DNA from: Candidatus Saccharimonadota bacterium
GTDB taxonomy: Bacteria; Patescibacteriota; Saccharimonadia; Saccharimonadales; SZUA-47
Assembly: GCA_020428465.1 (NCBI GenBank)
Contig: JAGQMY010000021.1
Span: forward strand, 1 to 35,649
Reading direction: 5' to 3'
Length of the DNA stretch: 35,649 bases
Shown here: piece after piece, positions 16,883 to 22,798 of the stretch
Layout of the letters: each line of letters opens with the position of its first letter
How positions within the stretch are numbered: the first letter of the stretch is position 1
Made by a program: the position numbers and the translations under genes
The notes under the pieces: model-generated
What the model was told of the DNA's origin: nothing
Databases searched by the model: none
Seen by the model: the letters and a program-made list of their open reading frames with translations, nothing else

Positions 16883-16902
16883 AAAATCTAACTTCTATAA
16901 TC
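16883..16902 (+). repeat. Copy of the four-helix-bundle flanking repeat
   Basis: This 20-mer matches the reverse complement of 27066-27085, beside the four-helix-bundle gene, at 19 of 20 positions. It overlaps the -10 region of the ychF relic. It may be the scar of a lost cassette. Confidence 0.6.
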
Positions 16903-16933
16903 TATAATCTATATACATGGGACTTTCAATTGG
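16901..16933 (+). repeat. Relic of the ychF promoter and first codons (direct repeat, left copy)
   Basis: These 33 nt match 21697-21729 at 32 positions. They include TATAAT, the same 8-nt gap, the ATG and the codons for Met-Gly-Leu-Ser-Ile-Gly. After that the frame runs Thr-Arg-Ile-Ala-stop, so it is dead. The true ychF lies 4.8 kb to the right, so this is either the original gene start left behind by an insertion or a duplicated target segment. Confidence 0.8.
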
Positions 16934-16978
16934 TACACGTATTGCGTAAACCAACATCCTTTCGAGCTAACACTGAAA

Positions 16979-17077
16979 ATGCCACCTACTGATAGAGGCG
17001 GTAGAGGCTACTCCGACAAATACGTTGCCGAAGCAGTTAGAGAACTAACATTAACGGAAAGACCCTCTAGTAATTGA
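16979..17077 (+). CDS. Possible 32-codon remnant frame
   Basis: A short open frame (MPPTDRGGRGYSDKYVAEAV and 12 more residues) begins just after the ychF relic and overlaps the 3' end of the HEPN-like gene on the other strand. Its composition is protein-like, with charged and aliphatic residues, but it has no ribosome binding site and no recognised family. It may be the truncated start of a gene cut by the island, or chance. Confidence 0.2.
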   Translation: MPPTDRGGRGYSDKYVAEAVRELTLTERPSSN

Positions 17078-17806
17078 AACTAGATTCTCAATTTCAGCAA
17101 CGGATGTATTCAAAAACTTCTTATCAATATCATAGCTTGGGTCATATCTAGCCAACTCTCGAAGACCAAGTAATTTGTTATGATTTTTTGCATACTTAGA
17201 AGGAATAATTCTGCCAATTTCCTTGTATCGGTTTATCAAAAGCTGTGTACCTTTGTGTGTCTTTACTGGCTTATGGACGTCATCAAGCGGCTGCAAAAAT
17301 AGCCTAGCTTTTGCAACATTTTCTGAAGCGACAAACAGGCTGTTCACTGCTGGTCCCAATCTTGCAGCTTCAATATCAGCTTTCGCAGACTGAAGAAATG
17401 ATTCACCTAATTCTAAAGTTGCTTTTGCCTTTCTGTTTTCATAGATGAAGCTAAAATAGACTTTCCACTCGTCCTTGAAACGCCAAATTGTGATATGACC
17501 AAAATCACTATCTTCTTCAAGTAATTGACCAAACTGAACGTCTTCGACGTCACTTTCACGCAACGCTTGACCTTTTTTGACCGACTTCCCTTTTGCAAGC
17601 TTTGCCTTAAAAATTGCTTTTACTTCTTCGTTAATCCTGATTGTTCTACTGCCATCAATCGCAAACAAAACTTGTACATGCCTCAGCTCGACAGGCTTTG
17701 GCAACTTGCCCTCTTTTTGGCGTCGTTCAATTTCTGGTAACGCCCAATTTTTCATGACTTGGTCAAAGACTGCTTTGCCTAAGTTGATGTCTTGGTCATC
17801 TTGCAT
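17051..17806 (-). CDS. HEPN-like protein, partner of the PD-(D/E)XK nuclease
   Basis: A 251-residue protein in two parts. The N-terminal half (to about residue 125) is mixed alpha/beta and unrecognised. The C-terminal half is helical and resembles HEPN domains: LESAKADIEAARLGPAVNSL-type helices, then LRELARYDPSYD, which resembles the helix-4 segment with Arg and Asp-Tyr in that fold. The canonical R-x4-6-H RNase motif is not evident, so it may be a non-catalytic HEPN. It starts 4 nt after the nuclease gene stops, so the two form an operon. HEPN proteins next to nucleases often belong to defence or toxin systems; that role here is inference. Confidence 0.6.
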   Translation of the reverse strand: MQDDQDINLGKAVFDQVMKNWALPEIERRQKEGKLPKPVELRHVQVLFAIDGSRTIRINEEVKAIFKAKLAKGKSVKKGQALRESDVEDVQFGQLLEEDSDFGHITIWRFKDEWKVYFSFIYENRKAKATLELGESFLQSAKADIEAARLGPAVNSLFVASENVAKARLFLQPLDDVHKPVKTHKGTQLLINRYKEIGRIIPSKYAKNHNKLLGLRELARYDPSYDIDKKFLNTSVAEIENLVSITRGSFR

Positions 17807-17810
17807 CCAG

Positions 17811-19091
17811 CTAACTATCGTCCTTCTTGTGCGGGATGTCTTCGGGATATTCGTATGCGGTGACTGCTTCGATCTTGGGGTCTTTCAAATAACCATGCTT
17901 GTCCATAAACTCAGCAATTTCTGGTGTTATAGCTTCTTTGAGGTCTTCATCCGTTGCGTCCAATAACACCCAATCAAATGAGCAACCATTAGAATTCTTT
18001 ACCATTGCTCGTTCGCTTACCACGGCAATCACCATGTTATTTTGTGGAAACTTCTTCCTAGCAGCTAATGCTGCCAGATATAGCATTGTCTGTCTCGGTC
18101 GCTTATCTCCATCTAAATTACCCATAAAAGCAAATACGTATGTTACACCTTCTAACGGATAGTAACGACGATAGACGAACGTTTCATCATCAGGTCCTTT
18201 AGCTGCTTCAACTGCAGCATCAGCATAGGTTTTGCCAAGAATACGTCGCTCAAACCTATCGTGACTCATCATCTTCGCTAAGAACTTGTCACGGTCTTCT
18301 GGCTTGCTTATATCACCTTCTTGTGGCAAACCCTCACTCTTCTTACGAATAAGCTCATCCCATGCTTTGCCCCAATAATTATCAAGCTCCTGCTTGGTTT
18401 TGTAGCCATCGTCTTCTTCCAATTCAGCCGCCGATCCCTCCGTATCCAAGAATATCTGATGTGCATTAGTGTCTTCCATATTGCCAAAAGTACGATTGTT
18501 ATTTATGTAAACGGCAAGGAGCTCTTCTTCACCGCCACTCAAAACTAAGCCCTTGCCATCGCTGAGGAATCTTTCTTTGTTCTGTAGATAGCGAATAAAA
18601 TCTTTCACTGTATTCAAGTGTTTTGTGGCGTATCGGGTGAACTTTTCAAAAAATATATGGACATTTCCTCTGTCACTGTCGTCGTAAAACGAACCCATTT
18701 CAGCCAACCCACCCTCAATAGCAGCAATTAAGTAGACGTTCTTTATAGTTGTGGCGTCTATAACTTTTGCTTTGCCCGATATATTAGTCAACGTGATTTT
18801 ACCGAGTGTATTAATTTTCCTTTTTGCACCTCGACACTGGCTTATAGCCTTGTTAACGTCCCCTTGCTTAAATACGCCATCCCTACCCAGCTTGATGTTT
18901 TTTATTTGCCAAACGATTGCGGTATCACCAAGCACGACTAGTACATCGCACAGCTCTTTACGGCCTTTGCCAGTGCCAACGTAGGGATTTTTGAAGCAAA
19001 AGTCTTGAAAAAACGCATCCCCACACAGGTCAGCAATAAGTGCCTCGGCAGCTGATCCCTTCTCATTGAATACATTTTTTGATTTACCCAT
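17811..19091 (-). CDS. Predicted PD-(D/E)XK (Mrr-like) nuclease
   Basis: A 426-residue protein. The N-terminal 70 residues look like a PD-(D/E)XK nuclease: Glu17 in GSAAEALI, Asp49 in RKELCDVLVV and Gln62-x-Lys64 in VWQIKN, the QxK form used by Mrr-type enzymes that cut modified or foreign DNA. The remaining 350 residues are unrecognised, with a charged middle section and a C-terminal alpha/beta region. It starts 6 nt after a TATAAT box, so the mRNA is probably leaderless, and it is followed after 4 nt by the HEPN-like gene. A restriction or abortive-infection function is plausible but not proven. The assignment is moderate because no family name could be matched. Confidence 0.65.
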   Translation of the reverse strand: MGKSKNVFNEKGSAAEALIADLCGDAFFQDFCFKNPYVGTGKGRKELCDVLVVLGDTAIVWQIKNIKLGRDGVFKQGDVNKAISQCRGAKRKINTLGKITLTNISGKAKVIDATTIKNVYLIAAIEGGLAEMGSFYDDSDRGNVHIFFEKFTRYATKHLNTVKDFIRYLQNKERFLSDGKGLVLSGGEEELLAVYINNNRTFGNMEDTNAHQIFLDTEGSAAELEEDDGYKTKQELDNYWGKAWDELIRKKSEGLPQEGDISKPEDRDKFLAKMMSHDRFERRILGKTYADAAVEAAKGPDDETFVYRRYYPLEGVTYVFAFMGNLDGDKRPRQTMLYLAALAARKKFPQNNMVIAVVSERAMVKNSNGCSFDWVLLDATDEDLKEAITPEIAEFMDKHGYLKDPKIEAVTAYEYPEDIPHKKDDS

Positions 19092-19097
19092 AGCACA

Positions 19098-19103
19098 ATT
19101 ATA
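19098..19103 (-). promoter_or_regulatory. -10 box of the nuclease/HEPN operon
   Basis: TATAAT on the minus strand, ending 6 nt before ATG 19091 with no ribosome binding site. This indicates leaderless transcription of the two-gene operon. The -35 is poor. Confidence 0.45.
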
Positions 19104-19161
19104 TCTCTGTTGGCTTGCTTACTCCAGTGATATTATTGCGTAATATGCTTATGCTTTAATT

Positions 19162-20847
19162 CTATGCAACCTTGCGATCCTGAAAATCTTTTGAGGCTTC
19201 ATCTATTGAGGCAATATATGCTTCTAGATTGCCACCTAGCGCTAAGGATATGACTCGTGATGTAGCCATCCTTCGAAGCGTTTCTTCACGACCTAACCCT
19301 ACATGTTCCGTGCTGCCTATTACAGCCTTGTCTTTAAGGACACGCACCTTAGCAAGCCGCTCATTGAACCTGTCCGCAAGTGCAGAGAGGTCGTCAAAGC
19401 CGTACTCTGTCACCTTCTCTCTCAGTCCGTCGCTTAGCTCATTTAGGGCTGATTCAAGTGATTCGGGGGTAACCGTTGGTAGCCCGCTTTCATCAAGTCT
19501 AGTTGCCGAAACAACAGTCATTGCCAACACATCGGGAGCTTTGCACTGCTCTGCATCATCACCAAACAAGCTAGCCGTAACTGCTTCACCCCTAATCATT
19601 GCGAAACCGTCGTTAATCTTGAATTTACCGTTCTCATCGACTTCACTATTTTCATACATACGCTGAACTTGTAAATCGGCTTCCTTGTCAAAACCTTCTG
19701 CACGCACTACTCTTATAACTTCACCATATCTAGATACTTCGTAACCTTCAATAGCAAGTGCTTCGGCACCATTCGTTAGACCATCAACGGTGCCCGCCAG
19801 AACCCACGCTACTGCTTGTTCGGTATTCCTAAAACCACCTCGTAACTCAACCCTACCATCCAATACCCTCAAAGTCTTTCTTGTAGGTCCTACATTCAAG
19901 TTACCGCTTCCACCTTTAGCGAACATATAGTCATACTTGCTTGCCATTTCGGCATCAATGTAAATGCCTTCTTGTTTTGCCTCCATTATCCCGCTTGTAA
20001 TATCAACGGTGTCATCCGCTCTCGACTCTGAATTTCCGATAAGCTCATTGTATGAACCGTCTTGCTGTCTTTCATAGACGCTTAGGTTGACGTGCTCCAT
20101 TTGAGCACCCGTGGTCACTATTGCACCTAATTCAGCACCAATCTCTCCCATTCTCTGTTTTATAATTGCAGTTCTTCGTAGTGCTTCAGATGGGTTACAA
20201 GGCGTTAGCCTTATCTCAGAAACACCAGCATTGTCGTAATAACCGCTTTGCAGGGTTCCTCTCCCGAACCTCCACTCTATCCACCCGTTTTCATCTGAAA
20301 AAGCATCTATGTCTTCAAGGCTAGCATCCTCAGAAATTTCAGGTATTCGCAGCTTAGGTTTCGAAAACTCCTCATAAATTAAAAAGTTGACGATTTCTGC
20401 TGGTCCTAGCTGATCAACCTGTTCAAGCCATCGCTCTTGAAAGTCTGCTTCTGCTTTATCTTCTGGCTTCAACCTTTGTAAAAAACCTTTAGCATAGCTT
20501 CTAAACTCCCCCACTAGATCGGTATAGTCATGATCATCACTATGAATCGTGTCTGGATTAAGAACTAACCCGACGTTATAATCTCTTAAGCTGTCGCTAA
20601 TTTTCTCGTTGTCTACAACATCACTTCTAAAATCACTAGGACGCTGTAAGCCGAACTCAATTTCAATGCCAACCCTAAACTCTAAATGTCTTTTTCCTTT
20701 ATAGGTGTCAATCCCCTCTTGAGCCGCTTGCTCTAACTCAGCAATAGCAAATTGATTTTGGGCTAACTGCTCAGCGTTATCCTGAAGAGGAGAGTTTGCT
20801 TGATCTGCAATTTGCGGTTGGGTTTCGTAAAGTGTTGTTTCTGACAT
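19162..20847 (-). CDS. Predicted amidoligase / glutamine-synthetase-fold protein
   Basis: A 561-residue protein with signatures of the carboxylate-amine ligase (glutamine synthetase-like) fold. Counting from ATG 20847, a metal-binding strand FRVGIEIEFGL is at about 58-68, a second acidic strand VSEIRLTPCNPSEAL near 209-223, a HVNLSVY strand at 252-258 (compare HxHxS of GS), and RVELRGGFRNTEQAVAW at 332-348 followed by LAGTVDGLTNGA, which closely mirrors the RxExR..N..L.AGL.G segment of GS. About 200 residues of helical C-terminal domain follow and are unrecognised. Such enzymes join a carboxylate to an amine using ATP; the substrate here is unknown. The frame opens at ATG 20883, but that codon overlaps a TATAAT box, so ATG 20847 is preferred. 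The gene is 70 bp upstream of the nuclease operon. Confidence 0.7.
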   Translation of the reverse strand: MSETTLYETQPQIADQANSPLQDNAEQLAQNQFAIAELEQAAQEGIDTYKGKRHLEFRVGIEIEFGLQRPSDFRSDVVDNEKISDSLRDYNVGLVLNPDTIHSDDHDYTDLVGEFRSYAKGFLQRLKPEDKAEADFQERWLEQVDQLGPAEIVNFLIYEEFSKPKLRIPEISEDASLEDIDAFSDENGWIEWRFGRGTLQSGYYDNAGVSEIRLTPCNPSEALRRTAIIKQRMGEIGAELGAIVTTGAQMEHVNLSVYERQQDGSYNELIGNSESRADDTVDITSGIMEAKQEGIYIDAEMASKYDYMFAKGGSGNLNVGPTRKTLRVLDGRVELRGGFRNTEQAVAWVLAGTVDGLTNGAEALAIEGYEVSRYGEVIRVVRAEGFDKEADLQVQRMYENSEVDENGKFKINDGFAMIRGEAVTASLFGDDAEQCKAPDVLAMTVVSATRLDESGLPTVTPESLESALNELSDGLREKVTEYGFDDLSALADRFNERLAKVRVLKDKAVIGSTEHVGLGREETLRRMATSRVISLALGGNLEAYIASIDEASKDFQDRKVA

Positions 20848-20874
20848 ATTTTTGTTTTTACTATTAACATATTT

Positions 20875-20880
20875 ATTATA
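20875..20880 (-). promoter_or_regulatory. -10 box of the amidoligase-like gene
   Basis: TATAAT on the minus strand. Transcription would begin about 20 nt before ATG 20847. The box overlaps the alternative ATG at 20883, which would be excluded from the mRNA. Confidence 0.4.
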
Positions 20881-20910
20881 CATTATTTTGCTATATTTGT
20901 CTAGTTGTAT

Positions 20911-20964
20911 TATCAGTTAAGGGTCGGACCCTTAACCCCTTAGAAAATTACATATTTTCGAAAT
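20911..20964 (-). repeat. REP-like palindromic repeat, copy 1
   Basis: The core at 20916-20936 is a perfect hairpin: arms GTTAAGGGTC and GACCCTTAAC around one central base. The flank CC-C-TTAGAAAATTAC and a T-rich tail continue the identity with copy 2 at 21631-21683. Both copies have the same orientation and bracket the RAYT transposase gene, the classic layout of REP sequences and their transposase. Confidence 0.85.
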
Positions 20965-20971
20965 TCCCCCG

Positions 20972-21586
20972 TTAATTATCTGCTAATACGTATTTCAGCT
21001 CACTCAACATTTTCTTATTTTCTTCGTAATCCGCGACGAATATTCCGTACTGTCTTCTGTTGCTATGTAGCTCTAGCACCTTTTCAGACTGCAACCACTC
21101 TGGCTCTGTTCCCTTGCGAATATATTTAAAGCTTGAAAACTTATAGTTTCTCCAGCTCCTGGGATTAAGGTGTATATACCTAGAAACATGCAATAGGTAT
21201 GAATCCTTATTAACGAGCGATGCTTTAAACCGAGATCCAAAAACAGGTCCGGTTCTACCATATTTGTTATTAAAATACGCCGTATACGATACCATAATGC
21301 TTTTCATAAGCTCCGACAAAATACCCTGATCCCGCTGATAAAAAAGCAAATGAAAATGATTATCCATCAGACAGTACGTCAAAAGTTCAATTTTGTTCCG
21401 AAAGTGCGGATACGGATAACCATTCCTAGTAACAACCTCTCTTTTAGAGAGATGTCGTGAAAGCAAATATAGAAAATAGTCCTTGTCTGATTCGTCTATA
21501 AATATTATGTCTTTATTAGCACCACGCGCATAAACATGATAATAGCTTTCAGGTAAATCATGACGAATCACATTTCTTGAAGGCAT
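20972..21586 (-). CDS. REP-associated tyrosine transposase (RAYT, Y1_Tnp family)
   Basis: Single-strand HUH-type transposase related to IS200/IS605 TnpA. The metal-binding motif is HFH in YCLMDNHFHLLFY and the likely catalytic Tyr lies in the helix VSYTAYFNNKYGR. The family features SYYHVYARG near the N-terminus and VFGSRFKASLV followed by YIHLNPR are present. At 204 aa it matches RAYT proteins. The frame opens at ATG 21595, but a TATAGT box at 21597-21602 sits right before that codon; ATG 21586, 10 nt downstream of the box, gives the expected MPSRNVIRHDLPES start. Palindromic repeats lie 8 bp beyond its stop and 45 bp before its start. RAYTs are often single-copy domesticated enzymes that move REP repeats; here both copies still flank the gene. 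Confidence 0.9.
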   Translation of the reverse strand: MPSRNVIRHDLPESYYHVYARGANKDIIFIDESDKDYFLYLLSRHLSKREVVTRNGYPYPHFRNKIELLTYCLMDNHFHLLFYQRDQGILSELMKSIMVSYTAYFNNKYGRTGPVFGSRFKASLVNKDSYLLHVSRYIHLNPRSWRNYKFSSFKYIRKGTEPEWLQSEKVLELHSNRRQYGIFVADYEENKKMLSELKYVLADN

Positions 21587-21596
21587 AACAACCATA

Positions 21597-21602
21597 ACTA
21601 TA
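21597..21602 (-). promoter_or_regulatory. -10 box of the RAYT gene
   Basis: TATAGT on the minus strand, 10 nt before ATG 21586. Low confidence because the -35 is weak. Confidence 0.3.
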
Positions 21603-21630
21603 AACCCATAATTAAAACTTGCAAAATCCT

Positions 21631-21683
21631 TATCTGTTAAGGGTCGGACCCTTAACTCCTCAGAAAATTACTAGTTTTGAAAT
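21631..21683 (-). repeat. REP-like palindromic repeat, copy 2
   Basis: The core 21636-21656 is identical to the core of copy 1 (10-bp arms, one-base centre) and the flanks are about 80 percent identical. On the minus strand the hairpin foot is preceded by GAGGAG, which resembles the GGAG/GTAG tetranucleotide recognised by RAYTs in other bacteria. Its outer end supplies the -35 box of ychF. Confidence 0.85.
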
Positions 21684-21704
21684 AACGGGTTAGAATTCTA
21701 TAAT
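21677..21704 (+). promoter_or_regulatory. ychF promoter, partly inside the REP-like repeat
   Basis: A TTGAAA -35 at 21677-21682 and a TATAAT -10 at 21699-21704 are 16 nt apart. The -10 ends 8 nt before ATG 21713, so the ychF mRNA is probably leaderless. The -35 lies in the tail of REP copy 2, while the -10 is part of the 33-nt repeat shared with the relic at 16.9 kb. Confidence 0.65.
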
Positions 21705-21729
21705 CTATATTCATGGGACTTTCAATTGG
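21697..21729 (+). repeat. ychF promoter/start direct repeat, right copy
   Basis: Right-hand partner of the 33-nt repeat at 16901-16933 (32 of 33 identical). It spans the -10 box and the first codons of the intact ychF, and marks the right edge of the accessory island. Confidence 0.8.
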
Positions 21730-22798
21730 CATCGTAGGGCTTCCGAATGTAGGCAAGTCTACGCTATTTAATGCACTAACCGATAGCAGTGTATTAGCTG
21801 CTAATTACCCTTTTGCAACAATAGAGCCAAATACCGGAATTGTCCCAGTACCAGACTCACGTCTAAAAGTTTTAGCTGAGATGTACAAGACAGAGAAAAT
21901 TGTTCCAGCAACAGTTACGTTCGTTGATATAGCCGGACTTGTTGAAGGAGCAAGCAAAGGCGAAGGTTTAGGTAATCAATTTCTAAGCCATATACGAAGC
22001 TGTAATGCTATATGCCAAGTAGTGCGAGCATTTGATAATCCTGACGTGCTTCGTAGTGATAGCTCTAAAGACCCTAGTCATGACATCGAAGTCATCAACA
22101 CCGAGTTAGTTTTAGCCGATATTCAGACTGTCGAAAACCGTATTCCGCGGCTAGAAAAGGAAGCGAAAGCAAATCCAAAATTAAAGCCTGTCTTAGAATT
22201 ATTGAACAATATTTTTACTCATCTAAATAGTGGTCATCCTCTCTGGAAATACCCCGATTTACTAGAAGAATACAGAGAACATTTGAGTGATTTGCAGCTC
22301 ATGAGTGCTAAGCCGATTTTGTACCTTTTTAACATAGACGAAGATAAATTATCAGATGAAAGTTTTAAGAATCATTTAAAAGATCTAGTGGCCCCTGCTC
22401 CATGTGTTTTTGTATCGGCCAAGCTCGAGGACGAACTACGTGGACTCGACGAAAATGACCGATCAGAAATGCTTGAAAGTTATGGTCAAACAGAACCGGG
22501 TCTTAACCAAGTTATCCATGCGGCTTATGATTTACTGGGTTTACAGAGCTACCTTACTGCCGGCGAGAAAGAAGTCCGAGCTTGGACAATTCATAAAGGC
22601 GATACAGCGCCGAAAGCTGCTGGAGTAATACATGGTGATTTTGAACGTGGTTTTATTGCTGCGCAAATAGTTAATTACGACGACTTAGTAGAGGCTGGCT
22701 CAGAGCAGACGGCTAAATCTGCTGGCAAAGTTCGCACCGAAGGTAAGACTTACGTCATGAAAGAAGGCGATGTGGTGGAGTTCAAATTCAATGTGTAG
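21713..22798 (+). CDS. ychF: Redox-regulated / ribosome-binding GTPase-ATPase YchF
   Basis: Obg-family P-loop protein YchF (OLA1 homologue), which associates with ribosomes and hydrolyses ATP better than GTP. G1 is GLPNVGKST at residues 8-16, the G3 region is VDIAGLVEGASKGEGLG, and YLFNIDED replaces the GTP-specifying NKxD, as usual for YchF. The C-terminal TGS domain contains KEVRAWTIHKGDTAPKAAGVIH and ends in the family's EGDVVEFKFNV. At 361 aa it is full length. The start codon is 8 nt from the -10 box, so it is translated without a leader. The first six codons are duplicated at 16.9 kb. Confidence 0.97.
   Translation: MGLSIGIVGLPNVGKSTLFNALTDSSVLAANYPFATIEPNTGIVPVPDSRLKVLAEMYKTEKIVPATVTFVDIAGLVEGASKGEGLGNQFLSHIRSCNAICQVVRAFDNPDVLRSDSSKDPSHDIEVINTELVLADIQTVENRIPRLEKEAKANPKLKPVLELLNNIFTHLNSGHPLWKYPDLLEEYREHLSDLQLMSAKPILYLFNIDEDKLSDESFKNHLKDLVAPAPCVFVSAKLEDELRGLDENDRSEMLESYGQTEPGLNQVIHAAYDLLGLQSYLTAGEKEVRAWTIHKGDTAPKAAGVIHGDFERGFIAAQIVNYDDLVEAGSEQTAKSAGKVRTEGKTYVMKEGDVVEFKFNV

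Follow-up and report, generated by a model that had tools for sequence, protein, structure and literature searches.

What placed two copies of the start of ychF, a housekeeping gene, at the two ends of a 4.8-kb island? This question is raised by a 35,649-nucleotide stretch of DNA from a Candidatus Saccharimonadota bacterium, which is referred to here, at its full length, as the window. Positions 16901-16933 and 21697-21729 of the window are identical at 32 of 33 positions, and both hold a TATAAT, a short leader and the sequence ATG GGA CTT TCA ATT GG. No third copy is present in the bacterium's own genome (996,900 b searched, with up to 3 mismatches allowed). Among 200 mononucleotide shuffles of the region 15.5-23.2 kb, none produced a 33-mer that agrees with the repeat at 32 of 33 positions, and the best match in the last of these shuffles was 18.

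The right copy (21697-21729, plus strand) comprises the -10 box, leader and first six codons of the present ychF, with the GG at 21728-21729, and is translated as MGLSIGIVGLP. The present start is preceded by a promoter-like TTGAAA-16-TATAAT (21677-21704, plus strand; 11 of 12 consensus positions), and ychF itself (21713-22798, plus strand, 361 aa; PF06071 and PF01926) is intact. A match was found in all 60 relatives searched, in most of them by far the best one being to ychF. The left copy (16901-16933, plus strand) comprises the old ychF -10 box, leader and first six codons and is translated as MGLSIGTRIA*. Directly before it lies the former ychF promoter region (16883-16900, plus strand), where a tandem TATAATC starts and which was identified by alignment to the native ychF upstream region of the related genome G007.

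The likely answer, to which a probability of roughly 0.82 is given, is that 16934-21729 constitutes a cassette belonging to a large serine recombinase (LSR) system, with the ychF start as target (attB). In this proposal, the LSR would join DNA at the GG of ychF codon 6. The attP would lie inside the LSR gene near its 3' end, and insertion would leave the last ~36-55 LSR codons beside the old ychF start as the left border; because the attachment site would be inside the recombinase gene, integration would swap the recombinase tail. At the right border, the other end of the element would give ychF a new upstream region and first codons. In autonomous elements, the LSR would still be found next to ychF, and the start provided would be, for example, ATG CTA AGC ATT GG. 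Smaller cassettes, having lost the LSR, would bring a promoter together with a ychF-like start; they would be arranged in rows and depend for their movement on an LSR acting in trans. One such LSR-less cassette, whose genes encode a HEPN protein, a putative nuclease, an unknown protein and a RAYT, would be present in the window.

The left border carries much of the evidence. Here, the ychF start is cut after the GG of codon 6 and is followed by the element's left arm, the C-terminal tail of an LSR (16934-17077, plus strand), which was identified by homology to LSR. The tail is read from the TGG at 16931 to the stop TGA at 17075-17077, so that its reading frame spans 16931-17077 and 144 nt lie past the left repeat. 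On G001:C11, the middle part of an unbroken LSR gene matches the left arm with 78% identity over 115 nt. The junction and the tail homology are shown at the sequence level. The crossover itself, at the GG at 16932-16933 where the left repeat ends, is inferred, and no movement has been observed. The sequence-only reading had regarded everything between the repeats as accessory; the recombinase tail could not be recognized in it. The idea of a separate small gene for 'MPPTDRGG...' was given up once this sequence was recognized as the LSR tail.

The same junction has been observed in eight relatives, where the old ychF start likewise breaks off after the GG of codon 6 and the LSR tail comes next. 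Some old starts near ychF are misfits: that of G020 has no tail, that of G042 runs on to codon 9, and in G078 the duplicated start is longer. At eight sites, the arms form a dyad about the GG, with 12-19 of 26 positions matching. In G001, from the genus of the window, the gene for an LSR extends into ychF; the protein has Resolvase, Recombinase and Zn-ribbon domains. Inspection of 30 loci and some additional stretches showed an LSR, or what remains of its C-terminus, ending on ychF in at least 14 of 148 relatives. Integrated relatives are shown, and so are unbroken LSR+tail genes, one of them on a 9,124-b circle (G010:C31). Both unbroken and split LSR genes are present in relatives, indicating that attP lies inside the LSR gene.

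LSR tails are present in 74 of the 392 genomes of the order, and all 89 tails on ychF contigs lie upstream of ychF, on the same strand and within 18 kb. An LSR is present in only 21 of the 74 tail-bearing genomes. The window contains no LSR gene, and no member of the LSR family was found in its own genome at E<=1e-20; a separate search gave a weak match. Mobilization in trans is an inference. When viral contigs were compared with the LSR alignment, 110 relatives were found and 80 kept, and ychF was absent from the stretches of all 80. Diverged starts such as that of G042 escaped a nucleotide self-comparison for repeats of the start, and searches by pattern and profile were used instead.

The site without an insertion is also shown. 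In G007, from the same family, the genes on the pilM side are followed by ychF with one promoter and one start only; the sequence preceding this start aligns with the one that precedes the left copy of the window (107/164 and 91/139 nt). The earlier claim of a direct repeat of the ychF promoter and start flanking a 4.8-kb island held in the sequence comparison, and the claim that an insertion kept ychF by means of a second 5' end is supported by this site. Two outcomes had been named that would speak against the insertion, a dispersed repeat family and the lack of an empty site; the repeat is not dispersed in its own genome, and G007 provides the empty site.

Two explanations without a recombinase are considered very unlikely. 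In the first, a foreign ychF allele together with upstream genes would have entered by homologous recombination in ychF, with an illegitimate join behind codon 6. Such an event would also account for an old start on the left side and a complete ychF on the right. However, the left join falls on the same GG, and enters the same LSR tail, as in eight relatives, and both starts have common codon choices, unlike those of the relatives compared. The recombination with another ychF allele that had been proposed earlier is not needed for the left end; a version of it survives as a rival for the origin of the right copy. In the second, two contigs would have been joined at a short repeat as an assembly artefact, for which the assembly of the genome in 111 contigs can be cited. 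Against this, the copies differ at one base, so that the longest exact run common to both is 18 nt, the same type of junction recurs in many genomes, and the gene order on both sides of the island agrees with that of relatives.

For the right copy, the reading as an LSR cassette is based on the rows of units observed before ychF. Rows of 2-6 units are present in fourteen genomes, approximately half of the units are toxin-antitoxin-like, and in many of them the right end is a start resembling that of ychF. The same unit can stand at different positions in these rows, and the order of two units is swapped between two genomes with sharp ends, which is shown at the sequence level; sharp ends are missing in three of the eight unit pairs compared. 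In these rows, the right-hand ychF start travels with the inserted unit, and the repeat in the window therefore need not be a target-site duplication. Compared with 19 chosen loci, the window fits the layout of an LSR-less cassette, with the tail at the left, the cargo, a ychF-like promoter and start at the right, and then ychF. That the right copy arrived with the cassette remains inferred.

The main rival accepts an LSR insertion at the left and lets the right copy arise on the spot. An autonomous element would have lost the half with its LSR, and ychF would have regained its native start, either by way of an uninserted ychF (on a sister chromosome or in DNA taken up) or through copying of the left border during break repair; the window would then hold a newborn cassette. 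The agreement of the copies supports this, as 32/33 is the highest of 16 loci compared; in the 15 others, the last two junction halves agree at 6-24 of 33, which makes the value in the window unusual for a cassette from elsewhere. In addition, the right copy resembles a native half-site and not an LSR arm. Over the dyad-arm span it agrees with the left copy at 25/26 positions and with its own dyad partner at 6/26 (chance about 7), and no LSR-type arm was found at the right border, as it agrees with five family arms at 5-8/26 (chance about 7). Such a repeat would also explain the birth of LSR-less units with a ychF start. On the other hand, the right-end start goes with the unit in the rows of relatives, so that no special event is required, and G365 likewise holds a pair of halves at 31/33. 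Production in place is judged somewhat less likely than not. The right copy as a one-off repair was demoted to a rival after the rows were found.

In the cassette reading, the cargo consists of four minus-strand genes between the repeat copies, encoding a HEPN protein, a 426-aa protein, a 573-aa protein and a Y1 transposase. The HEPN-domain protein (17051-17806, 251 aa), the end of which overlaps the LSR tail, matches PF05168 just above the cutoff (22.5 bits, cutoff 22). The 426-aa protein (17811-19091) matches no Pfam family, only PHROG 18195 of unknown function; we take it to be perhaps a PD-(D/E)xK-type nuclease (E46, D49, Q62-x-K64). Its gene is present in 4 of 392 genomes, with a 54% identical relative in G283, and in the stretches examined of the other genomes it adjoins neither a tail nor ychF. 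An AlphaFold model made from two sequences was useless (mean pLDDT 41). The 573-aa protein (19162-20883) is of unknown function and has one further, weak match in the 392 genomes; the label 'amidoligase-like' given earlier is supported by neither Pfam nor NCBIfam, and the sole Pfam match, SsgA, is below cutoff.

The RAYT-like protein (20972-21595, 207 aa) is a Y1 transposase by PF01797 (32.5 bits, cutoff 23), and its match to NCBIfam REP_Tyr_transpos (35 bits) does not reach the curated cutoff of 80. A 49-nt repeat with the palindrome GTTAAGGGTCGGACCCTTAAC was found by repeat comparison to its left (20910-20958) and again to its right (21630-21678), which fulfills the RAYT/REP criterion of a Y1 transposase domain with palindromes on both sides. 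For the cargo, nothing was obtained from Pfam, NCBIfam and PHROGs beyond HEPN, Y1 transposase, SsgA/SsgD matches below cutoff, a PHROG of unknown function and weak PHROG matches (E 0.09-0.2). PADLOC returned no match for the four genes, and no relative turned up when viral contigs were scanned with two of the cargo proteins. That the cargo serves in defense is only an inference.

Genomes of Saccharibacteria are very small, and how they gain accessory genes is little understood. A fixed site with defined ends in about one fifth of the sampled genomes of the order (74/392) provides a handle on their mobile gene pool, and insertion at the ychF start explains the varying ychF starts among relatives. 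The system also offers serine recombinases with an attachment site in their own gene, and the exchange of tails suggests, in a form open to testing, how an enzyme of this kind could control reaction direction.

Several known systems share parts of this arrangement. Islands and prophages associated with dusA enter a housekeeping gene at its 5' end and put their own sequence in its place, leaving a remnant of the old 5' end at the far side, with promoter-like sequences before and after (PMC4482086). The insertion, replacement and remnant resemble those of the ychF cassette, whereas the target is dusA and the integrase, of the tyrosine type, belongs to another family; neither an attP inside the integrase nor rows of small cassettes are described in the relevant parts of that paper. 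The 'suicidal' SSV-type integrases of archaea do have attP inside the integrase gene, so that integration splits the gene and integrated copies need another integrase; they are tyrosine recombinases and are said to be exclusively archaeal (PMC8371274). The ychF LSR, with attP likewise inside its gene in relatives, is a bacterial serine recombinase with Resolvase/Recombinase domains and loses only a short C-terminal tail. In the myxophage Mx8, attP lies within int, and integration makes a new int 3' end with changed properties (PMC6070905), which is similar to the ychF LSR; Mx8 differs as a Myxococcus phage with another target, and neither ychF nor cassettes appear in the relevant part of that paper. 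A pneumococcal prophage sits directly before ychF, as the element in the window does, and expression of ychF is reportedly controlled by a defective prophage (PMC8637289). Its attB (PPH005) is flanked by ychF and is not inside it, and no replacement of codons is described in the relevant parts of that paper.

Staphylococcal SCC elements with Ccr also combine large serine recombinases, a single chromosomal target, tandem elements and recombinase-less 'pseudo' elements, which is the combination proposed for ychF. They differ in inserting at the 3' end of orfX/rlmH and are not known to supply a gene start. Integrons, with the tyrosine integrase IntI and attC hairpins, contain rows of small units, often toxin-antitoxin pairs, in an order that varies among genomes, as do the ychF rows, which differ in having a serine recombinase, a double-strand dyad site and a host gene start as target. 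A bolder reading, which we judge as apt to be wrong as right, sees in this system a bacterial analogue of the integron that relies on a serine recombinase. Small toxin-antitoxin and defense cassettes would queue before ychF, and each would come with a promoter and first codons for ychF to use; the recombinase would act in trans, the exchange of its own tail at integration would be a built-in direction switch, and the window would hold a large, perhaps newborn, cassette.

The sequence-only reading had claimed that a 33-nt direct repeat, carrying the -10 box and first six codons of ychF, brackets a 4.8-kb island (16901-21729), and this claim held. Sequence comparison confirmed both copies (16901-16933 and 21697-21729), which differ by one base, and a match as good was reached in none of 200 shuffles; a whole-genome search found no further copies elsewhere in the same genome, so the repeat is not dispersed there. 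The proposed check for a relative with an empty site was also run, and an uninserted ychF was found in G007, a genome of the same family that has no island before this gene. In G007, the DNA preceding ychF can be aligned, tandem TATAATC included, to that in front of the left copy (107/164 and 91/139 nt, on two contigs). The older start is therefore the left copy, and the island entered behind codon 6 of ychF, which now lies at 21713..22798 (+). The GC content is 0.414 in the island and 0.395 and 0.397 in the adjoining DNA. As far as contigs extend, relatives share the order pilM, a long surface protein, a variable part, ychF, often DUF4260, and further on a crp-like gene and efp.

In three relatives (G001, G002 and G014), a frame overlaps the ychF start and runs into ychF. 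The frame of G001, a member of the window's genus, encodes a complete large serine recombinase (LSR) with Resolvase, Recombinase and Zn-ribbon domains. Matches to this LSR at E<=0.001 were obtained in 41/148 relatives, many of them weak, and ychF stands at the end of the LSR gene in 13 of the 30 fetched loci. With G104 added from some further stretches, an LSR gene or C-terminal remnant ends on ychF in at least 14/148 relatives. In a scan of genome contigs, ychF was directly behind the LSR in nine of the best 80 loci (of 541 relatives), including one Kaiserbacterium (L120) and loci L118 and L119, and in none of 80 viral loci. The element supplies a replacement ychF start, which reads, for example, ATG CTA AGC ATT GG in G014 and MSSSKLSVG in L118. 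No LSR of this family is present in the window's own genome.

Eight genomes (G127, G073, G122, G102, G046, G002, G014 and G006) have an old start cut after the GG of codon 6, located either upstream of a ychF gene that follows an LSR or on a different contig. Behind the cut follows a conserved frame of about xPFExxLxMPPTDxGxRGYSDxY, whose copy in the window (16931-17077) has 32-72% identity to nine others. On contig C11 of G001, the LSR reads unbroken into 'WYTYLVTQQHFELKLTMPPTDRGGRGYSDEYV...', and a search against that contig aligned this tail to the window with 90/115 identical nt (E 1e-21). The conserved frame is the C-terminus of the recombinase. Contig C31 of G010 has identical ends over 127 b and is therefore a 9,124-b circle (L109), which holds an unbroken LSR and tail. 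Since LSR and tail are unbroken in both contigs, attP, the site of the element, lies within the LSR gene. In G010, ychF itself begins with an ordinary start; the circle, with a Gabija-like GajA/GajB pair aboard, represents the free state of an element of this type. G001 seems to carry two elements in tandem: on C11, an old start with its tail is found at 46.09 kb and the unbroken LSR at 54.7 kb, and C44 has another LSR before ychF, although the adjacency of the two contigs is inferred.

The arms beside the GG form an imperfect dyad centred on it, with 12-19/26 matching positions in the eight sites compared; six of these sites were assembled from both ends of integrated elements. At G102 and G046, GG ties with another centre; at the other six sites it is the best one. 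A crossover at the GG of codon 6 is inferred from sequence alone. An arm motif (VGLNAKH..., VGLDVEH...) is repeated two or three times in the LSR C-termini of G014, G046 and G122 (L044, L059 and L103), possibly as if arms had once been duplicated or shifted.

The tail arm of the window pairs with family arms at 11-16/26 positions (p 0.07 to 0.0002). The right end of the island is not LSR-arm-like, as it matches its dyad partner at 6/26 and five family arms at 5-8/26, where chance gives about 7. What stands there is a ychF start together with a promoter-like TTGAAA-16-TATAAT (11/12); no such match at the TATAAT of the left copy was found in a scan around it.

Rows of units before ychF were studied in 19 loci, selected because they contain rows, with some singles added. 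In all 19, ychF is downstream of the tail or tails, many of which are preceded by a promoter and ychF-like start and others by an LSR arm; the start of ychF itself was judged by eye as native-type in 13, LSR arm in four and unclear in two. From 13 of these loci, 35 units were cut (median 903 b), of which 19 are toxin-antitoxin-like when BLAST-linked units are counted, one being only indirectly linked; the remainder have different cargo, with products of up to 825 aa. Family searches with ten small cargo proteins, taken from six units, gave matches at E<=0.001 for nine (PIN, YafQ, Phd/YefM, MazE or FitA-like families; two of the nine below Pfam's cutoff); one had no family match. Loci L306-L317 show rows of up to six units of ~0.8-0.95 kb, many of which encode a PIN or YafQ toxin-antitoxin pair.

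Two PIN units stand in reversed order in G187 and G271. Their similarity (89% and 83%) starts and ends no more than about 10 nt from the junctions, with an agreement of 0.76 and 0.94 between the starts at their right ends. Four genomes (G110, G158, G238 and G276) share a YafQ unit whose left end is sharp; its right end is less telling because the next tail or ychF is conserved anyway. Three of the eight compared unit pairs, too diverged or composite, did not show sharp ends. The island of the window is likely one unit of this row type, with a tail, cargo and a ychF start at its right; mobility is inferred, as no movement was observed. Its cargo faces the tail, an orientation shared with G122 and G006. 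The two halves of its repeat agree at 32/33, above 15 other loci (best pairs 12-31/33; last two junctions 6-24/33), which fits either a cassette start taken from the window's own lineage or a cassette made in place, and the two remain undecided.

A profile built from ten tails, including that of the window, whose own match is thus by construction, matches 103 places in 74/392 genomes of the order. All 89 places sharing a contig with ychF lie upstream of it on the same strand, 252-18,016 nt away. At least one place is on the ychF contig in 64 of the 74 genomes and only on another contig in ten; 14 genomes have two to six places, and 21/74 have a family LSR at E<=1e-20. In a phylum-wide sample, 10/295 genomes match: six of the order (the window's own included), two of the class and two others only weakly.

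The island cargo is rare among genomes of the order: among 392, the gene for the 426-aa putative nuclease is present in four, one of them as a remnant in G129, and that for the 573-aa protein in its own genome, with one weak match in one more. The G129 remnant, 31 residues between other genes (L055 8906-8998), adjoins what by eye resemble two DNA methylase genes in a locus like a restriction-modification cluster. This location and the HEPN gene beside the putative nuclease point to defence, a role that is inferred. The RAYT gene is flanked by a 49-nt direct repeat (20910-20958 and 21630-21678) with a near-perfect palindrome; no further copies exist in the rest of the genome, so this RAYT has just one pair of sites.

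Three loci are against the LSR model or unexplained by it. G020 has an old start and LSR-arm remnant without a tail. G042 (L043 11422-11560) keeps nine old ychF codons, 113 nt upstream of the present start, a join differing from the GG-codon-6 type; a hairpin-like GTACCAAAA...TTTTTGGTAC lies between the two starts. In G078 (L062, oriented 9273 and 9797), ychF starts occur twice at a distance of 524 nt, and roughly 50 nt of ychF remain with the first of them, more than in relics of the LSR type. Separately, near-equal-sized contigs from different families, G006:C43 (L064) and G061:C2 (L066), are identical around the old ychF start and tail, probably through a binning error in one genome.

No description of a ychF-start LSR system was recognised in the open-access literature searched for Saccharibacteria/Patescibacteria with serine recombinases or mobile elements, for integrases together with ychF, and for serine integrases with rows of cassettes; coverage was partial and absence is unproven. 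The main text of a large LSR survey contains none of 'ychF', 'Saccharibacteria' and 'Patescibacteria'. The separate pieces are already known. Replaced 5' ends of a target gene have been described for dusA islands (PMC4482086), and an attP inside the integrase gene for Mx8 (PMC6070905) and archaeal SSV-type integrases (PMC8371274). Serine-recombinase elements in rows are also familiar, as SCC elements.
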